From positions 1-64,000 of the forward strand of contig CALXNS010000076.1 in the NCBI GenBank assembly GCA_944389815.1: DNA of 64,000 nt. The letters run 5' to 3'. Source of the DNA: an uncultured Victivallis sp. (GTDB taxonomy: Bacteria > Verrucomicrobiota > Lentisphaeria > Victivallales > Victivallaceae). Both the position numbers and the translations under genes were made by a program. Of the stretch, positions 33,812-44,068 are shown piece by piece (position 1 is the stretch's first letter; each line of letters opens with the position of its first letter). A model generated the notes under the pieces. It was not told the origin of the DNA and did not search any database. It worked only from the letters and a program-made list of their open reading frames with translations.

Positions 33812-36391
33812 TCATTTCCCGGTGTAGAGTCCCGGTCCGTCGCCGATGTGGAGGAAGACCGAACGCCAGATGCCGCCGCCGAGGGTGAAGTCGTCGACCC
33901 GGACGACCAGCACGTTTTCTTCGCCCTCCGGTTTGAGTGCGTCAGTCGCGTCGAAGCGGAAGGGTTCCTTCCACCAGGTCGAATCGGTTTCCCCCTCTTT
34001 GGTATGAAGCCCGAGGCGCTGTCCGTTGAGAAAAACTTCCGCTTCGTCGTCGACGGCGCCGAAGAGCAGTTTGACCGCTTTGCCTTTCCAGCCTGCTGGC
34101 GTCGGGAATGTTACAGCGTACCACACCTGACCGTCGTAATCGGCGGTGCCGGGAAGGCCGCTCTGTTCGAAATAGGACGGAACGGAAATCGTCTGCCATT
34201 CGGCGGCGGGAAATTCGCGAAGATTGAAATATTTCGCATCCATTCCCACCCGGTCCGGATCGAGCCGGAATTTCCAGCGTCCGTCCAGCCGTTCGGTCCC
34301 CGGGGGATCGGGTTCGACCTCCGCGCCGTAGAGGGAGATGCCGGAGAGAATCATGTCCGGCCGCTCCACCTTCGACCAATCCCAGCCGCGGCGGAAAAGA
34401 AGACGGACTTTGCTGGTGCGGACATCTTCGAAGTCTGCAAGCATGCGTCCGGCTCCCTTCAGCGGTCCGAGAGTGCGCCAGTTGCCGAAGACGTATGCCT
34501 GCGCTTCGGCGTCGCTCCAGCTGTAACCGCCGTTGCCCGGTGCTTTGACCAGAATCCGGTTGAGGGTGTAGGTGCCGGGAAGTTCGATTTCAACGAAATG
34601 AGGAGCCTCCGAGCGGCCGCTCGACCAGCCGACCTGACCGTCGGAGAGGGCGGCGCGCCGAAGGAGGTTCGCGTCACCGGTATCGGCGGAGAAACGGGCC
34701 TTCTCCAACGGCACGAGCCGGCTGTATTTTTCCAGGGCGGTCGTGACGATTTCGAGATATTTGGTGACGGCGTCGCGTTGAACGTCGATCAGCCACTGTG
34801 CGTAATAATTTGCTTTCGGAGTTTTCTTTTTTGCCGCATCCAGAAGGGTGATGGCTTTCTCGGCGTCGGCTTTGCGGGCGGAAAGAACCCGGGAATTGTC
34901 CTCCGTGACGATGGATTTGTTGTTCAAATTCATCCGGATGACGTCGAGCATCTCCTTCCAGCCGTCCCCGAAAAGCAGAAACGCGGCGCGCGGCGCGACG
35001 TTTTCGACGATCCACTCCTCCTCGGTCGGCAGATCCGGGTTCCAGAAATACTGTGCCGCGATCGCCGCGAGAAGTCCCCATGCCTCGTAATGGTAAGCAT
35101 TGGTTCTGCCGTCGTGTCCCTTTGCCTCGGTGAAGTTGAGATCCCAGGTCGAGCCGGTCCAGGCGGAAGTATAACGGAACTGGCAGACCTTGAGGTTTTC
35201 CATATATTTACGGTAGGCGGCGACATCTTCGGGGGTGCGTTCCTCAAGCATGACGTAGAAGTGATCGCGCATCTCCTGCGGCACAGTGGCGGCGGTGCGC
35301 CGGAGATATTCGCGGAAGTTCTCGACATCTTCAAGATCGTCGTTTCCGGGGGAATCGTAATAGACCGGCACGGTCCAGATTACGGTCACGTCGGGACATT
35401 TTTCCTGAAGAGCGTTGAAAATCTGTCGGAAACGGATTACATCCGGTTCAACCGGGGAGGGATCATCGGGATAATTCTTCCGGTCAAGATCGTCGCGCTT
35501 GTCCCAGAACTGCTTGATGTAGACGTGCCACCAGCCGGCGTCGGTGACGTCGTGCCAGCAATATCCGCCGACACCGGGCGCGCTGGAATATTGAAGCGCC
35601 ATATCGACATATTGCTGATTGAGCGCAGGGTCGGACCAGTTCCACGGATGGAGCGGCGGTTCGCCCTTGGGACGGTTCCAGCCGCCGGAGCAGAGCCGCA
35701 GATAACGATCCAGCGCGTATTGCTGGCATGATGTGTCGCTGGGATAACCGTAGCGGCCGTAATTGTAACGCATGAGCATACTGGAGAGGAGCAGTGCATC
35801 CTTCTGGCGTTCGACCGGAGCGTGACCGCCGCCGACCTGGGCGGCGGTGCCGAGGCGCATTTCGAATCCGGGGAAATCGGTGGCGTCGACGCCGCGGAAA
35901 GTCCAGGAATCGTTTTCCGCCGGGCGGAGGAGCTGGATCAATCCGGCGAGCGCATAGGCCGCGCCCTGGGTGTCGGAGGCGACCACGTAAACGGCGTCGG
36001 GGCGGGAACGGATGATGAAACTTTGTGCATTGCGTTCATCCTGCGGAAGTTTGGCGATTTCCGAGTCGGGAATGAGATTTTTCAGTTCAGCGGAGCGTTC
36101 TTCGGGGGTGAGAATCTTCACCGGCAAGCCGTCGCCGCCGTCGAATCGGATCGGAAACGTCTTTTCCCAGTGGCGCGCCAGATAATCGGAGAGGTCGTCG
36201 GTGACGAGCTTGAGCCGTTCGCGGTCGAATTGATCCGAGAGGTGCAGCGAAAACCCCGTCAACGGTATTTCCGCGTCACTGTAATGCGCCTGCCGGGGGA
36301 TGGGGAACATTTCGCGGAAACGGTCAAATTCCACGGCGCTGAGCCCGACGGCGACGAGACCCAGTAAAAAGATGAAAACGATTTTTTTCAT
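33812..36391 (-). CDS. Secreted multidomain GH84-like enzyme, paralog 1
   Basis: 859 residues with signal peptide (MKKIVFIFLLGLVAVGLSA). Residues about 20-165 are a GH20/GH84 N-terminal-type domain (FPIPRQAHYSD, AQSFIIRSRPDAVYVVASDT, GAAYALAGLIQLL). A barrel at about 170-480 resembles GH84 (PGVGGYCWHDVTDAGWW, VIWTVPVYYD, FYVMLEERTPEDV, CQFRYTSAWTGSTWDLNF), a helical region follows, then an F5/8-C-like domain (about 610-710) and a GH2-type sugar-binding jelly roll (about 725-855). In GH84 the catalytic pair is W-D-D; here it reads W-H-D, so activity may differ. Very similar over its full length to the gene at 36833-39430. Own promoter with LacI-type operators. Confidence 0.75.
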   Translation of the reverse strand: MKKIVFIFLLGLVAVGLSAVEFDRFREMFPIPRQAHYSDAEIPLTGFSLHLSDQFDRERLKLVTDDLSDYLARHWEKTFPIRFDGGDGLPVKILTPEERSAELKNLIPDSEIAKLPQDERNAQSFIIRSRPDAVYVVASDTQGAAYALAGLIQLLRPAENDSWTFRGVDATDFPGFEMRLGTAAQVGGGHAPVERQKDALLLSSMLMRYNYGRYGYPSDTSCQQYALDRYLRLCSGGWNRPKGEPPLHPWNWSDPALNQQYVDMALQYSSAPGVGGYCWHDVTDAGWWHVYIKQFWDKRDDLDRKNYPDDPSPVEPDVIRFRQIFNALQEKCPDVTVIWTVPVYYDSPGNDDLEDVENFREYLRRTAATVPQEMRDHFYVMLEERTPEDVAAYRKYMENLKVCQFRYTSAWTGSTWDLNFTEAKGHDGRTNAYHYEAWGLLAAIAAQYFWNPDLPTEEEWIVENVAPRAAFLLFGDGWKEMLDVIRMNLNNKSIVTEDNSRVLSARKADAEKAITLLDAAKKKTPKANYYAQWLIDVQRDAVTKYLEIVTTALEKYSRLVPLEKARFSADTGDANLLRRAALSDGQVGWSSGRSEAPHFVEIELPGTYTLNRILVKAPGNGGYSWSDAEAQAYVFGNWRTLGPLKGAGRMLADFEDVRTSKVRLLFRRGWDWSKVERPDMILSGISLYGAEVEPDPPGTERLDGRWKFRLDPDRVGMDAKYFNLREFPAAEWQTISVPSYFEQSGLPGTADYDGQVWYAVTFPTPAGWKGKAVKLLFGAVDDEAEVFLNGQRLGLHTKEGETDSTWWKEPFRFDATDALKPEGEENVLVVRVDDFTLGGGIWRSVFLHIGDGPGLYTGK

Positions 36392-36549: not shown

Positions 36550-36648
36550 GTTAAAAGGTTTTAACAGTTCAAGTCAAAAAAAACACCTTTCCAACATGTG
36601 AAAGGTTCTAATACAGGTAATTATAGTTGATTTTTCCGATGGTGTCAA
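36550..36648 (-). promoter_or_regulatory. Promoter and two operators of GH84-like paralog 1
   Basis: On the minus strand TTGACA (36643-36648), 17 bp, TATAAT (36620-36625). Operator-like palindromes follow downstream: TGTGAAAGGTTCTAAT (36597-36612) and GTTAAAAGGTTTTAAC (36550-36565, perfect 7-bp arms). The spacing from the -10 box (8 bp and about 55 bp) equals that at the LacI promoter near 41300. The transcript has a leader of about 220 bases; the part 36392-36549 holds nothing else recognisable. Confidence 0.8.
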
Positions 36649-36832: not shown

Positions 36833-39430
36833 TCATTTTCCGGAGTAAAGTCCCGGTCCGTCTCCGATGTGAAGGAAGACCGAACGCCAGATTCCACCCT
36901 CCAGAGTGAAATCATCGACCCGGACGACCAGCACGTTTTCCTCTCCGGCGGGTTTGAGTGCGGCGGTCACGTCGAATCGGAATGGTTCCTCCCACCAGGT
37001 GGAATCATTTTCCCCCTCTTTGGTGTGGAGTCCGAGGCGTTGTCCGTTGAGGAAAACTTCCGCTTCATCATCGACGGCGCCGAAGAGCAGTTTGACCGCT
37101 TTTCCCTCCCAGCCGGCGGGCGTCGGGAACGTCACTGCGTACCACACCTGACCGTCGTAATCGGCGGAGCCGGGAATGCCGCTCTGTTCGAAATGGGAGG
37201 GGACGGTGGTGTCATGCCATTCCGATGCGGGGAATTCGCGAAGTTCGAACCATTTCGCGCCCATTCCGGCTCGATCGGGATCGAGCCGGAATTTCCAGCG
37301 CCCGTCCAGCCGGGCCGTCCCCGGGGGATCCGGTTCTACTTTGTTGCCGTAGAGGGTGATGCCGGAAAGAATCATATCGGGGCGCTCCACCTTCGACCAG
37401 TCCCAGCCGCGCCGGAAGAGGAGACGGATTTTATCGGTGCGGACGTCGTTGAATTCCGCAAGCAACCGCTCCCGGCCGGTGATCGGAGCAAGTTTGCGCC
37501 AGATTCCGAAAAAGTTCGCCTGCACTTCGGCATCGGTCCAGCTGTAACCGCCGTTGCCCGGCGCCTTGATCAGAATCCGGTTGACGTTGTAGACGCCGGG
37601 TAATTCGATTTCCACGAAATGCGGCGCCGCCGACCGGCCGCTCGACCACGAAATTTGTCCGTCGGAAAGCGCCGCGCTCCGGAGGCGGTTCGCATCGCCG
37701 CCGTCGGCGGTGAAACGCGCCGCGTCGAGGGCGATGAGTTGATTGGCCTTCTCCAGCCCGGAATTGACCAGTTCAAGATATTGTGTGAGTTTCGTGCGCC
37801 AGTTGCCGATGAGATAGTGGGCATAGGAGTTGGCTGCGGGGGTTTTCTTTTCCGCCGCGTCGAGAAGCGTCAACGCTTTTTCGGCGTCGCGTTTGCGTGC
37901 GTTCAATGTCTGAGTGTTGTTCTCCTTGACGATGGTTTTGTTGTTCAAGTTCAACCGGAGCACATCGAGCATCTCCTTCCAGCCGTCGCCGAAGATGAGG
38001 AACAACGCCCGCGGCGCGACGTTTTCGACGATCCACGCTTCATCGGTCGGCAGCTGCGGATTCCAGAGATATTGCGCGGCGATTGCCGCAAGTGGATCGG
38101 ACGCTTCGTAGAGATATCCCTCGGTTTTGCCGTCATGTTTTTGCGCATCGGTGAAATTGAGATCCCAGGTGGTGCCCGACCAGACCGAGGTATAACGATA
38201 TTGACACATCTTGAGATTGTCCATGTACTTGCGGTAATCGGCAACGGTTTCCGGAGAACGTTCCTCCAGCATCACGTAGAAACGGTCACGCATCTTCTGC
38301 GGCACGGTCGCGGCGACCAGCCGGAGATATTCACGGAAATTCTTCACATCCTTGAGATCGTCCTTCCCCGGCAGATCGTAATAGACCGGCACGGTCCAGA
38401 TGACGGAAACAGCAGGACATTTTTCCTGAAGCGCATCGAACATCGCCTTGAACCGGATTGCGTCCGGCCGCGCCGGGGAGGGATCATTCGGATAATTTTT
38501 CCGGTCGAGGTCGTCACGCTTGTTCCAGAAGTCATCGATGTAAACATGCCACCAGCCCGCATCGGTGACGTCGTGCCAGAAATATGCACCGACGCCGGGC
38601 GCTCCCGCGTATTGGAGCGCGAGATCGACATATTGCTGATTGACCGCCGGGTCGGACCAGTTCCACGGGCGGAGCGGCGGTTCGCCTTTCGGGCGGTTCC
38701 AGTAACCGGAGCAGAGCCGGAGAAAACAGCGGTCGATCGCGAACTGATGCTGCGAGGTGTCTCCCGGGTATCCGGCTTTGCCGTAATTGTAACGCAGCAA
38801 CATTCCCGCCAGTTGCAGCGCCTGCTGCTGGCGTTGGACGGGAGCGTCTTTGCCGCCGGCTCCAATGGCCGACCCCATGCGCAGTTCGAAGGCCGGGAAA
38901 TCGGTGGCGTCGACGCCGCGGAACGTCCAGGCGTGATTCTCCGCCGGGCGGAGGAGTTGAATGATTCCGGCAAGCGCGTAAGCCGCCCCGCAGGTGTCGT
39001 TGGCAACGATGTAAACCGCGTCGGACGTCGAACGGATGATGAAACTTTGACGACCGCGTTCCCCCTGCGGAAGTCGGGCAAGTTCGGCGGCGGGGATGAG
39101 CGCTTTCAAGGCCGGAGTACGTTCGGCGGGGGTGAGAATGTTTACCGGGAATCCACCGGGAACATTCGTTTTGATTGGGAAGGGTAACCCCCATTGCCGT
39201 TCCAGATAGGCGGCCAGATCGCCTGCAATGAGTTCGAGCCGTTCGCGATCGAATCGATCCGAGATTCGCAGTGAGAATCCCGTCACCGGAATTTCCCGGT
39301 CGCTGTAACGCGCCTGCCGCGGGATGGGGAAGATTTCACGGAAGCGGTCGAATTCCGCCGCGACGGCCCCGGTATTGAAGAGGAACGGCAACGTGAAGCA
39401 GAGAAGAAGGAGATGGAAAAGGTTTTTCAT
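36833..39430 (-). CDS. Secreted multidomain GH84-like enzyme, paralog 2
   Basis: 865 residues with signal peptide (MKNLFHLLLLCFTLPFLFNTGAVA). Domain order is the same as in paralog 1: GH20/GH84-type N-terminal domain, GH84-like barrel (GAYFWHDVTDAGWW, VIWTVPVYYD, FYVMLEERSPETV), helical part, F5/8-C-like domain (SDGQISWSSGRSAAPHFVEI, NGGYSWTDAEVQ), GH2-type sugar-binding domain (WYAVTFPTPAGWEGKAVKLL). The last 250 residues are almost identical between the two. The catalytic position again reads W-H-D. It follows the prepilin-like gene by 24 bp, third gene of the LacI-led operon. Substrate not readable; a hexosaminide is the family expectation. Confidence 0.75.
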   Translation of the reverse strand: MKNLFHLLLLCFTLPFLFNTGAVAAEFDRFREIFPIPRQARYSDREIPVTGFSLRISDRFDRERLELIAGDLAAYLERQWGLPFPIKTNVPGGFPVNILTPAERTPALKALIPAAELARLPQGERGRQSFIIRSTSDAVYIVANDTCGAAYALAGIIQLLRPAENHAWTFRGVDATDFPAFELRMGSAIGAGGKDAPVQRQQQALQLAGMLLRYNYGKAGYPGDTSQHQFAIDRCFLRLCSGYWNRPKGEPPLRPWNWSDPAVNQQYVDLALQYAGAPGVGAYFWHDVTDAGWWHVYIDDFWNKRDDLDRKNYPNDPSPARPDAIRFKAMFDALQEKCPAVSVIWTVPVYYDLPGKDDLKDVKNFREYLRLVAATVPQKMRDRFYVMLEERSPETVADYRKYMDNLKMCQYRYTSVWSGTTWDLNFTDAQKHDGKTEGYLYEASDPLAAIAAQYLWNPQLPTDEAWIVENVAPRALFLIFGDGWKEMLDVLRLNLNNKTIVKENNTQTLNARKRDAEKALTLLDAAEKKTPAANSYAHYLIGNWRTKLTQYLELVNSGLEKANQLIALDAARFTADGGDANRLRSAALSDGQISWSSGRSAAPHFVEIELPGVYNVNRILIKAPGNGGYSWTDAEVQANFFGIWRKLAPITGRERLLAEFNDVRTDKIRLLFRRGWDWSKVERPDMILSGITLYGNKVEPDPPGTARLDGRWKFRLDPDRAGMGAKWFELREFPASEWHDTTVPSHFEQSGIPGSADYDGQVWYAVTFPTPAGWEGKAVKLLFGAVDDEAEVFLNGQRLGLHTKEGENDSTWWEEPFRFDVTAALKPAGEENVLVVRVDDFTLEGGIWRSVFLHIGDGPGLYSGK

Positions 39431-39454: not shown

Positions 39455-40111
39455 TTATTTCCAGAGAACGTCGAAGCTCATTTCGTCATGGCTGCCGTGC
39501 GGATGTTCGCCGATGTGCGTTTTGTCGACGTGCCAGTCCAGATAAAGAATGTTGGTGAAGCCGCCGTGCCGGACGTCGATGCTCTGGACGTTGTTGCGAT
39601 ATTGCCAGTAATACCAGTTGCACCATTGGTTGCCGATGGAGAATTCTCCGCCGTCGAGCATGCCGACTTTGCGTGACGGATAGACCCAGCGGGTGGATTT
39701 TCCGGCTCCGCTTGCATAACGCTCAACGCCGCTTGCATCGTAAAAAGACTGAAACATGAATTTCCCTTCCCGCGGATCGCTGTCATAAAGCAACGTCAGG
39801 GGTTTGCTGCAGCGCAGAACTTCGTTGCTCGGCGCATATTTCAGCGTAACAAGATAGTTATCCCACTGAACGCCGCCCCATAACGCTCCTTCGTAGCTGC
39901 CGTTCATCCAGCCTGTAAGGCTCCATTCGTTGTTGTCGGCGATATACTGGGCGTGAGAAAGTCCGGTCTGGCGCATGTTGTTGATACAGGTGGCGGTCCG
40001 GCCCCGCTCCCGGGCCTGATTCAATGCCGGAAGCAGCATCGAGGCGAGAATGGCGATGATCGCAATCACAACCAATAATTCAATCAGTGTAAAAATGCGG
40101 TGTAATTTCAT
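39455..40111 (-). CDS. Prepilin-like (pseudopilin) protein with H-x9-D motif
   Basis: 218 residues: MKLHRI then [20 protein letters not shown]. Glu+5 is kept; the residue before F is Ile rather than Gly. The C-terminal [14 protein letters not shown] fits H-x9-D with Trp in place of Gly. It starts 52 bp after the LacI gene; a hairpin (ATGAAACCG with CGGACGATTTCAT, 40137-40167) spans the LacI stop. Second gene in the operon, before the GH84-like enzyme. Confidence 0.9.
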
Positions 40112-40163: not shown

Positions 40164-41168
40164 TCATAATTTCACCTTGATGCTATTTCTGATCTCCAGA
40201 CGCGAAGGAACGCGGATGGTACGGATTTCCGGAATGCCGTTGATTTTCCGTTCCAGTTCGTCGAAGACTTCCCCGATGAAGAGCGCCGGATCGACCCGGA
40301 TGCCGGAGAGCGGCGGATTGTAGAGCGAACTCAGCTGCGAACAGTCGATGACCGCAATCGAAAGATCCTCCGGAATGCGGATGCCCGCCTGGCCGGCGCA
40401 GGAACAGAAATGCATCGCCGTAAGATCGGATGTTGCAAGAACCGCATCCGGCCGGTCGGCGAAAATTCTCTCGGCAGCACGTTTCAACGTCTCCATATCC
40501 CGGAAGGAGAAGTCGACGAGACGCGGTTCCAATCCGAATTCTCCGGCCAGCCGGGAGAAAACCTGCCGTTTGGGCGGGAACTCCGGATCATCGAGCAGCA
40601 CCACAGAACGAATGCCGTTTTGACGGAGATATTCGAAAAGTTCCGCCATGCCCGGTTCATAATCGTACTGAACCGTGCTGATGTCCACGGATTCGGCATT
40701 GATCGTGACCAGCGGCACGACGCCGTGATAGGCCCGTTTGATCCGTTCGGTGCTTTCGGAACAGTTTTCAAACGCCTGCGAACACATGATGACGCCATCC
40801 ACTGCGCGGGTGAGCAGCATCTCCATGGTATCGATCTCCCGCCTGGTATCCCAGACCGTCGGCGTCATCAGCAGTTGACAGCCGCGGCGGTTGGCCTCGT
40901 TCGCAAGTTGTTCAGTCAGCTCCGCGTAATACGGCGTGGCGCTGTCGCCGCAGACAAAGCCGATAATTCCGGTTGACTGGCGCTGCATCGCCAGTGCCAG
41001 GCGATTCGGACGGTAGGAGAGCGACTCGGCCAGTTCCCAGATGCGCTTCCTGGTGTTCTCCGAAACCCGCCGGGCCTGCGGTTTCCGGTTGAGCACGATC
41101 GATACGGTCGTAGTGGAAACTCCCGCCTTTTGTGCCAGCTCGGTGATGGTTACGACTCTTCCTGACAT
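40164..41168 (-). CDS. LacI-family regulator of the GH84-like locus
   Basis: 334 residues from ATG 41168; the frame extends 11 codons upstream, across the nearest operator. The LacI helix-turn-helix is plain ([50 protein letters not shown] is spread over residues 5-54), then a sugar-sensor domain ([78 protein letters not shown]). Three copies of one palindrome precede it and two more lie before paralog 1, so it probably represses both units and itself. No strong ribosome-binding site is seen. Confidence 0.93.
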
Positions 41169-41183
41169 GATTTCAATTTTTCT

Positions 41184-41291
41184 GGTGAAAGGTTTTACCA
41201 ACGCAACTCAAAAAAATCTTCCACCCCGGTGAAAGGTTTTACCATTTCGGCTGTAAAAACCGGACGCATACCGTAGGTGAAAGGTTTTACC
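41184..41291 (-). promoter_or_regulatory. Three LacI-type operators GGTGAAAGGTTTTACC
   Basis: The identical 16-bp sequence occurs at 41184-41199, 41228-41243 and 41276-41291, spaced 44 and 48 bp apart. It is a palindrome of form GGTnAAAnnTTTnACC. The copy at 41276 starts right after the expected transcription start. Roughly four to five helical turns separate the sites, which would allow looping. Confidence 0.85.
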
Positions 41292-41298
41292 TGTACTA

Positions 41299-41327
41299 AT
41301 TATACTCGATTTCGGCGTCGATGTCAA
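41299..41327 (-). promoter_or_regulatory. Consensus promoter of the LacI-pseudopilin-GH operon
   Basis: On the minus strand TTGACA (41322-41327), 17 bp, TATAAT (41299-41304): a full-consensus sigma-70 promoter, directly upstream of the three operators. Confidence 0.9.
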
Positions 41328-41361
41328 GAGTTCCGGCTGCTTTTTTGAGAGAAAAAACGCT

Positions 41362-42713
41362 TCTTCTCCGTTTTGAGCCATAAATCATGGTTGTTTTTGA
41401 GGTAGATAGAGGGGAGCTGAAATATCTTCAATTTGAGATAGGTTATGTTTCTGAAGCCATATGCCTGGTGAATGAGCCGCCGTATTTTGTTGTTGAATCC
41501 TTCGGTGGAGGCATTGTTCATTCGGTCGAAAGTCCAGTATTTGATGATTTTCGATAGTCTTTCGCGGATCGTTTTGCCATAGCGATCAACTCTCTACTTC
41601 CGGTAGCGGCAGCCTGGGGGGCCAACGGCGAGATGCCGCTTTTGCTTCAAGAGCATTGGACGCGGTTGCATAGATGCTTCTTAATGCTCTTTCAATAGAT
41701 ATGCATCGCTCAACTCCGTGAAATGTTTTCGCATGTTCCTGAGAATCAGGAGGCTGTCCTCGGCCTGGTCTTCCATGTTTCGGAGAAACAACATGCGAAG
41801 TTTCTTGAACTGATTGCGTTGAGAAGCATCAAGTTCAGCGACGTATCGCCTTCGAAGTTTATCCAACCGCTCATTCATCAGCTTGATGACATGAAAATGG
41901 TCGAATACGATTCGAGCTTTCGAGAAATGCTTTCCCTCCCAACTGGCATAAGTGTTGGACATGTCCATTGTAACGACTTGTAACTTTTTTTGAGCAACTT
42001 CTTATGTAATCAATCCAGTGCGGAAACGTCCTTTTCGTTTCCGACATGAAGCACCGCTTCGCTTTGCAGGTCACGAACAATCATCAGAAAAGCGGAAGAT
42101 TCGGTCGGGATTCTGACCGATATGGATTTCATCAATGCCGATCTGCCTGACATGGGCCGCAGATACACGGGCATACTTTCGTTCCAGAGACCGTTTCTCT
42201 ATTTCCTTGACCAACTCCCATCGCAAATGATATTTTATCGCGATGGAACGAATGCTCATCTCATGACGTTCCTCGATGATTTTCCATTCAAAATTCCTGG
42301 TAATTCGAGCGTTGCCGGAAGAGAGAAAATGCAGATGTTCAAAGTTGTGACAGGCAGGTCTGACAATACAATCGATGGATTTTGATTCAGAGATGGAATC
42401 AGATGCCGCCCCGTCGGCAAGCCCTGCATATCACGAATGCGAATACATTCCGATCGTACCTTCAACTAACCACATCGGGGACAGTGAAAATCCTTGTGTT
42501 TGATGATCCAAATCAATTTTTCTTTGCAATATTCAAATCTCTGGTGTTGAAATTCGCGGATTCTCTGTATATTTTGAAGTATGTGGTCGACGTTTTGCCT
42601 CCTTGGTTTTCGTTTTCAGAGGAAAAATTTATAAGGCAAGTGTTTACCTTTTTCCAGTTTTTATGATTTCGCTACCCCGTTTTGAGGTCATTTATGGCTC
42701 AAACGGGAGAAGA
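41362..42713 (-). mobile_element. Decayed ISL3-family insertion sequence
   Basis: About 1.35 kb bounded by inverted repeats: TCTTCTCCGTTTTGAGCC at 41362 onward (to 41385) and its near-complement ending at 42713 (from 42690). Minus-strand fragments of an ISL3 transposase remain: an N-terminal part with GIDEIHIGQ (42071-42259), a DDE-core part DMSNTYASWEGKHF, ARIVFDHFHVIKLMNERLDKLRR (41681-41968) and the C-terminal ASTEGFNNKIRRLIHQAYGF (41324-41521). Stops separate the fragments and at least one frameshift splits off the N-terminal zinc-finger part (42256-42465). It is AT-richer than its surroundings. No flanking target duplication was found. Non-functional. Confidence 0.82.
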
Positions 42714-42756
42714 GTCATCTTTTATTGCAATTGAGCACAAATCTGAGGAGTGAAAT

Positions 42757-43659
42757 ATGCAGAACGCAAAGACAAATTCCACAGGCTGGGTTAAATTCAA
42801 GGGGAATCCCGTATTGGGATCGACCGAACTGGGTACCTGCTTTGACGTGCATGTCCACCGGATTGAGACGGGATTCCGTATGTATTTCTCCTGGAGACCG
42901 CAATGCTCTCTGGCTTTTGTGGAGAGTTCCGACGGCATCAACTGGAACGAGCCGCAGATCATTCTCGGACCGAATCCGGAATCGGGCTGGGAAGACAACC
43001 TCAACCGTAACTGTGTTGTCATACGCAACGGGATTCATCATATGTGGTATACCGGACAGGCTCGCGGATTCAGCCGCATTGGTTATGCCGAAAGTTCCGA
43101 CGGCGTGAATTATCGCCGGGTCAGCTGCGAACCGGTGATGATACCGGAATTCCCGTGGGAAAAGGAATCGGTGATGAATCCATTTGTGAAATGGGATGAA
43201 AAACGCGGAATCTATCGCATGTGGTATGCTGCCGGGGAAACCTATGAACCCAATGCACTCGGTTATGCCGAGAGCCGGGACGGCATCCGCTGGCAGAAAT
43301 CCCCGCTGAATCCGATTCTGGTTCACGGTGACGATTTCTGGGATCGAAACCGGGTCGGCGGTTGCGAAGTGGTCGAATGCTGCGACGGCAGCTGGCTGAT
43401 GTTTTACATCGGATATGAGGATATCGATACCGCCCGGATTTGCGCCGCTCGTTCCCCTGACGGTGTCACCCGGTGGCAGCGCCTGAAGACCAATCCGCTG
43501 ATCTCTCCGGATCCGGGATCTTGGGATGCCGCAGCCTGCTACAAACCTTCCCCCTGGTATGATCCCTCCAAAAAACGCTGGATGATCTGGTACAACGGAC
43601 GCAACGGGAACGCTGAATATGTCGGTCTGGCCATCCACGAGGGCTATGAACTGGAGTGA
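42757..43659 (+). CDS. Five-bladed beta-propeller glycosidase (GH43/GH32/GH130-like)
   Basis: 300 residues, no signal peptide, ribosome-binding site GAGGAG 8 bases before ATG. Repeated propeller blades of the form Y-A-E-S-x-D-G-I-x-W are clear (FVESSDGINWNEP, GYAESSDGVNYRRV, GYAESRDGIRWQKS, CAARSPDGVTRWQRL), with MWYTGQ, MWYAAG, MFYIGY and MIWYNGR strand ends. Acidic residues suited to a glycosidase are present (CFDVHV, DRNRVGGCEVVE), but no single family could be fixed. It lies between two ISL3 remnants and is unlinked to a regulator, so it may have been moved there. Likely cytoplasmic. Confidence 0.7.
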   Translation: MQNAKTNSTGWVKFKGNPVLGSTELGTCFDVHVHRIETGFRMYFSWRPQCSLAFVESSDGINWNEPQIILGPNPESGWEDNLNRNCVVIRNGIHHMWYTGQARGFSRIGYAESSDGVNYRRVSCEPVMIPEFPWEKESVMNPFVKWDEKRGIYRMWYAAGETYEPNALGYAESRDGIRWQKSPLNPILVHGDDFWDRNRVGGCEVVECCDGSWLMFYIGYEDIDTARICAARSPDGVTRWQRLKTNPLISPDPGSWDAAACYKPSPWYDPSKKRWMIWYNGRNGNAEYVGLAIHEGYELE

Positions 43660-43740: not shown

Positions 43741-44068
43741 AATGAGGCGGGGGAAAGATATTCGCGGCAGGATTGGATATCACGAATGCAAATAATACAT
43801 TCCGGTCGTACTTTCAACGAACCGCAGCGGGGGGAGGTGAAACTCCCCGCGTTGATGACCCAAATCAATTTTTCTTTGCAATATTCAAATTTTTGGTGTT
43901 GAAATCCGCGGCTTCTCTGTGTATTTTGAGGCAATGTGGTCGACATTTTGCCTCCTTGGTTTTCGTTTGGCGAGACAAAACTATAAGGCAAGTATCGACC
44001 TTTATCCAGTCGTTATGATTTTCTCTGCCCCCCGTTGTGAGGTTATTCATGGCTCAAGCCGGAGAAGA
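43741..44068 (-). mobile_element. Second ISL3 remnant (transposase N-terminal end only)
   Basis: Bases 43775-44068 match 42429-42713 of the other element closely, including the stretch AAATCAATTTTTCTTTGCAA and the terminal repeat (44045-44068). Only the 5' part of the transposase and one inverted repeat remain; the other end is missing. Same orientation as the first copy. Bases 43660-43740, between the glycosidase gene and the remnant, hold nothing recognisable. Confidence 0.75.

Follow-up and report, generated by a model that had tools for sequence, protein, structure and literature searches.

A duplicated promoter in a Victivallis glycoside-hydrolase locus may answer to two related LacI-family repressors

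The window considered here, a 64,000-nucleotide stretch of the draft genome of an uncultured Victivallis sp. (135 contigs, 95% complete), carries on its minus strand, in this order, genes for a LacI-family regulator, a prepilin-type protein and a glycoside-hydrolase-like protein (paralog 2), then a further promoter and a second glycoside-hydrolase-like gene (paralog 1). The regulator (40164..41168, 334 aa) has the domain pair of LacI/GalR proteins, an N-terminal LacI helix-turn-helix (HTH; PF00356, 4.4e-14; 52.4 bits against a cut-off of 27) and a C-terminal periplasmic-binding-protein-like domain (PF13377, 1.3e-18; 68.1 bits, cut-off 26.5), and its recognition helix reads T19 T20 T21 V22 S23 I24. 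The second gene of its operon encodes a prepilin-type N-methylation protein (39455..40111), matched weakly by PF07963 and above cut-off by TIGR02532; the third is paralog 2 (36833..39430), with matches to GH20 domain 2 and a GH2 sugar-binding domain. Paralog 1 (33812..36391), placed by its own domain matches and by alignment, is 75% identical to paralog 2 in protein (residues 12-859) and 77% in DNA.

A scan of 13.5 kb gave 14 promoter-like sites (6.2 expected), of which just two agree with the sigma-70-type consensus at 12/12 positions: promoter 2 (41299..41327, minus strand), which serves the LacI operon, and promoter 1 (36620..36648, minus strand), which serves paralog 1. Both are TTGACA-17-TATAAT, the form already read for promoter 1 by the first-pass annotation. 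Directly upstream of the LacI promoter lies a broken ISL3-type transposase (41341-42760; DDE_Tnp_ISL3, 2.8e-24 for one piece), with a partial copy at 43774-44068 (82.8% over 297 bases).

Downstream of promoter 2, also on the minus strand, are three putative operators: O1 (GGTAAAACCTTTCACC, 41276..41291), which would span about +2 to +17 given an assumed start site 7 nt past the -10 box, O2 (41228..41243), and O3 (41184..41199), 15 nt before the LacI ATG. All three are the same 16-mer, as had been claimed, GGTGAAAGGTTTTACC occurring exactly at 41184, 41228 and 41276; with up to three mismatches it has four places in the window (0.38 expected), the fourth being 36550. Promoter 1 has two sites on the minus strand: a proximal one, ATTAGAACCTTTCACA (36597..36612; plus-strand spelling TGTGAAAGGTTCTAAT), with one half of the window-LacI type and one of the GTT type, and a distal one, GTTAAAACCTTTTAAC (36550..36565; plus-strand spelling GTTAAAAGGTTTTAAC), which is a perfect palindrome. 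They differ from the promoter 2 16-mer at four and three positions, respectively. The gaps from the -10 box are 7 and 54 nt at promoter 1, essentially the 8 and about 55 first reported, and 7, 55 and 99 nt at promoter 2. The 16-mers of promoter 2 are even palindromes near the regulator's own promoter, within the 16-22 bp range of LacI/GalR operators and symmetric at 6 of 7 outer pairs; their centre is GG rather than the CG that is usual in the family, although not defining for it. The half-sites at the LacI promoter are all GGT (6/6), against one of four at the paralog 1 promoter, where the other three are of the GTT type. Operator centres are 44, 48 and 47 bp apart by our own arithmetic, which are not whole helical turns, and neither looping nor phasing is claimed.

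How unusual is this layout? The genome has 48 LacI-type HTH matches in 3.38 Mb, 24 of them with a promoter scoring at least 10/12 at 17-bp spacing within 300 bp. A palindrome 2-15 bp past the -10 box follows 8 of these 24 promoters, compared with 6 of 480 coding control segments, and by eye the arrangement was present in 11 of 15 LacI upstream regions inspected. A consensus promoter with a palindrome just past the -10 box is a common autorepression design among the LacI genes of this genome. The idea that paralog 1 copies the layout of promoter 2 needs restating accordingly: the leaders are homologous (below), but the layout is generic and is not itself evidence of duplication, and the register of the copy is O2/O3, not O1/O2.

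That register comes from aligning the transcribed leaders, which gives a score of 47 against a best of 32 among 1000 dinucleotide shuffles (0/1000 as good) and pairs the operators of promoter 1 with O2 and O3, together with a T-run that both have between the operators. Between-operator sequence had been described as shared, and CAA-TCAAAAAAA does occur in both leaders, as CAAGTCAAAAAAA between the promoter 1 operators (36570..36582) and as CAACTCAAAAAAA at 41204..41216, although the latter lies between O2 and O3; taken alone this segment is weak as evidence of homology, with 77 of 2000 shuffles as good. Spacer plus 7 nt is identical at 11 of 24 positions between the two promoters (at most 10 with any of the 23 other LacI promoters), and for the spacer alone the likeness is matched by 2 of those 23. 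The leader alignment is in part clade-wide, because the A-tract past the distal operator occurs both at O3 and at C11, a contig of the same genome with a related LacI gene: the promoter 1 leader scores 43 against the C11 leader alone, operator and A-tract being common there too. Proof that the whole operon had been duplicated was sought in LacI or prepilin remnants in the paralog 1 leader, where a short-word BLAST found none, and no similar DNA was found in plasmids.

The leader score and the likeness of the two proteins bear out the suggestion that the promoter was duplicated with the gene: the sequence comparisons support the paralog 1 promoter and leader as a diverged copy of those of LacI, and the genes as duplicates. 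The first operator of the copy sits 7 nt past the -10 box as O1 does, yet aligns with O2, which is most simply explained by the loss or gain of one repeat through recombination between the operators. Among relatives elsewhere, the best is G005:C27, a LacI/prepilin/hydrolase operon in the same gene order (LacI 63%, hydrolase 60%); since it has one hydrolase copy, the duplication probably postdates the split from it. The G005 ortholog locus has two near-copy promoters of its own (L037:6480-6560 and L037:7715-7775), one before LacI and the other before a gene whose close homolog, on contig C52 of the window genome, is DUF4434, and more than one event of promoter copying may therefore have occurred in this local regulon. 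The best two relatives of that DUF4434-like G005 gene in the window genome (on C52 and C113) have no such site just upstream.

A genome scan with the operator motif, proposed in the first-pass annotation, found it to be rare: the LacI promoter accounts for three of the four places of GGTNAAANNTTTNACC in 3.38 Mb, and an ORF contains the other. The pattern of the distal site, GTTAAAANNTTTTAAC, with up to one mismatch has only three places in its own genome: 36550; C11:15235, before a polysaccharide-deacetylase gene; and C11:17191, upstream of a LacI gene that has 43% identity to the window LacI and is followed by a prepilin-type gene. The distal operator, three positions off the window LacI operator, is letter-for-letter the operator of this C11 LacI. 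With three and four mismatches, the sites of promoter 1 may or may not be of the same operator type as those of promoter 2, and the proposal that a single LacI regulator governs both transcription units fits poorly with a distal site identical to the operator of another LacI in the genome. At the C11 locus (L035:6222-10261), the deacetylase and LacI/prepilin promoters have one exact operator in common, and the prepilin gene is the last before the contig end.

The broader pattern TGAAAGGTTTTA with up to one mismatch has 13 places in the genome, five in the window and two in the C11 promoters; among the others, one is at an ORF start (C7), those in C109, C23, C25 and C70 are inside ORFs, and C16 has one as well. 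Of 12 relatives searched, three have GTTAAAASSTTTTAAC with up to one mismatch: G099 exactly, before its clade LacI; G005 with one mismatch, before a gene adjoining the ortholog LacI; and G039 at one place. When a looser GGT pattern was sought with one mismatch allowed, 11 of these 12 genomes had it, with similar control counts in many, and this search does not discriminate. LacI relatives were also sought in the genome contig collection, where none was confirmed.

In the tree, the window LacI is sister to that of G005:C27 (100/99) within a six-member clade (97/99). LacI, a prepilin-type gene and a gene for a large, probably carbohydrate-active protein follow one another in five of the six loci (the window, G005:C27, G005:C3, G003:C19 and G099:C83); in the sixth, C11, a prepilin gene follows LacI and then the contig ends. 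The ortholog of the window LacI and other clade members likewise have operators of the GTT type; the clade operators include GTTAAAAGGTTTTAAC again at G099:C83, GTTAAAACGTTTAGAG and GTTAAAACCTTTAAAC at G005:C27, and TATTAAAAGCATTTAATA at G005:C3 and G003:C19. Seven positions from the centre, at the outer second position, the other five LacI promoters have T in their best half-sites, and the window LacI promoter has G in 6/6 half-sites. The recognition helix begins with TT only in the window LacI, with AA in G005:C27 and with PA in the other four, and its sixth residue is I in all six; from lac repressor work, we take these helix positions to be operator readers. Since the other five members combine T with AA or PA, and the window LacI combines GGT with TT, the GTT operator looks ancestral and the GGT sites and helix TT derived. 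The LacI promoter of the G005:C27 ortholog also has degenerate half-sites that fit neither type well, so this polarity rests on few sequences.

What the analysis shows is sequence, homology and exact identity of sites; from these we infer a mechanism, with its binding, repression, ligand and acting repressor, that would run as follows. LacI-family repressors would shut both promoters from palindromes beginning about 2 nt into the transcript: a dimer on O1, or on the proximal site, would block initiation, operators lying some 50 and 95 nt beyond it would be extra sites or elongation roadblocks, and a predicted sugar ligand would release the repressors. The window LacI would repress its own operon through the three identical GGTRAAA operators. 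Paralog 1 would stem from a tandem duplication that brought along a copy of promoter and leader matching the O2-O3 part of the LacI leader; its distal site would be of the older GTTAAAA type and its proximal site a hybrid. The C11 repressor would most likely bind the distal site, and the window LacI would bind the paralog 1 promoter more weakly. On these sequences, we put the chance that both repressors act at paralog 1 at about even. A further, more tentative step, which we hold to be possible at somewhat under an even chance, is rewiring: the window LacI and its three operators would have changed together (PA or AA to TT in the helix, GTTAAAA to GGTRAAA in the operators), with the paralog 1 promoter keeping one old-type and one hybrid operator and now answering to C11 also or instead.

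The window LacI could instead control both promoters alone, the paralog 1 sites being weaker, drifted operator copies in a graded two-operon local regulon. One repressor may serve all five sites, since the distal site is only three changes off and LacI proteins tolerate some mismatch, and proximity, the homologous leaders and a proximal site slightly nearer the window operator (four mismatches) than the C11 operator (five) all favor this, as does the G005 ortholog LacI, which also heads a local set of two near-copy promoters (49/65 identical). The exact match to C11 may likewise be retained ancestry without present C11 binding, because three changes within the palindrome suffice to reach the operator common to the clade, a path that is not very improbable. 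Yet the distal site is fully palindromic, of the other clade type and exactly the C11 operator, where drift would rather break symmetry, and the split in half-sites (GGT 6/6 at the LacI promoter, non-GGT 3/4 at paralog 1) also counts against it; as judged from the sites, we regard sole control by the window LacI as less likely than joint action. Carried to the other extreme, the paralog 1 promoter would have passed wholly to the C11 LacI, with the window LacI no longer acting there. The identity of the distal 16-mer to the operators of both C11 promoters and the changed helix start of the window LacI would suit such a transfer, but the proximal site retains a GTGAAAGG half of the window type, and complete transfer seems improbable.

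A different kind of control would operate in the RNA: the leaders could also be attenuators, with operator RNA as the 5' side of a hairpin stem that precedes a U-run, and LacI or another factor setting termination. Weak terminator-like coding-strand hairpins, partly of operator sequence, do precede T-runs at 41235-41218 and 36606-36585, and that of promoter 1 folds at -8.3 kcal/mol, with 205 of 5000 segment shuffles as good. However, terminator-like sites are no more frequent in the scan than in shuffles (17 vs 17.9), the promoter 2 hairpin is ordinary (1342/5000 shuffles as good, z 0.03), the stems pair in different registers, and by eye neither the G005 ortholog leader nor the C11 leader has a T-run. 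With no support from scan, folding and segment shuffles, and no stable G+C-rich hairpin with a U-run kept in the ortholog leader, we rejected attenuation as very improbable. The preferred reading remains the joint action of the window and C11 repressors at paralog 1; taken together, control by both or by the C11 repressor only is probable, as against one LacI over two operons.

How does this arrangement compare with known systems? In the E. coli lac layout, as in the putative one here, an operator lies just past the start site. By analogy with lac repressor roadblocking, in which LacI bound downstream can stall RNA polymerase (PMC4132739), the further sites could act similarly; unlike the E. 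coli case as that paper presents it in the parts used here, the window has several putative operators within 100 bp, at spacings of 44-48 bp. In the sections of PMC4052901 on which we draw, autoregulation is reported for 72% of the LacI transcription factors studied and a CG operator centre for 1173 of 1303, with another or a degenerate centre in the minority. The window resembles the local regulons described there in its LacI HTH and periplasmic-binding-protein-like domains, even palindromic operators, predicted autoregulation and local carbohydrate genes, and differs from them in its GG centre, its three identical operators at one promoter and its duplicated promoter with a distal site that is another LacI's operator. 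The same sections describe ThuR and AglR, related repressors whose operator sequences came to differ once both regulator and target had been duplicated (PMC4052901); unlike that pair as described, one duplicated target promoter in the window has both site types side by side. Literature searches found no regulon study of LacI proteins in Victivallis or Lentisphaerae, and nothing on crosstalk between LacI paralogs.

The system is of an ordinary kind, with a testable twist. With 48 LacI-type HTH matches in one genome, there is a real question of how sister repressors are kept apart. If the rewiring reading is true, one small locus would combine a helix change, three co-changed operators, and a duplicate promoter in which an old-type site lies beside a hybrid one, and drift in operator specificity could be tested directly, using two proteins and a few DNA sites: paralog 1 may be a duplicated gene caught being rewired between related repressors.
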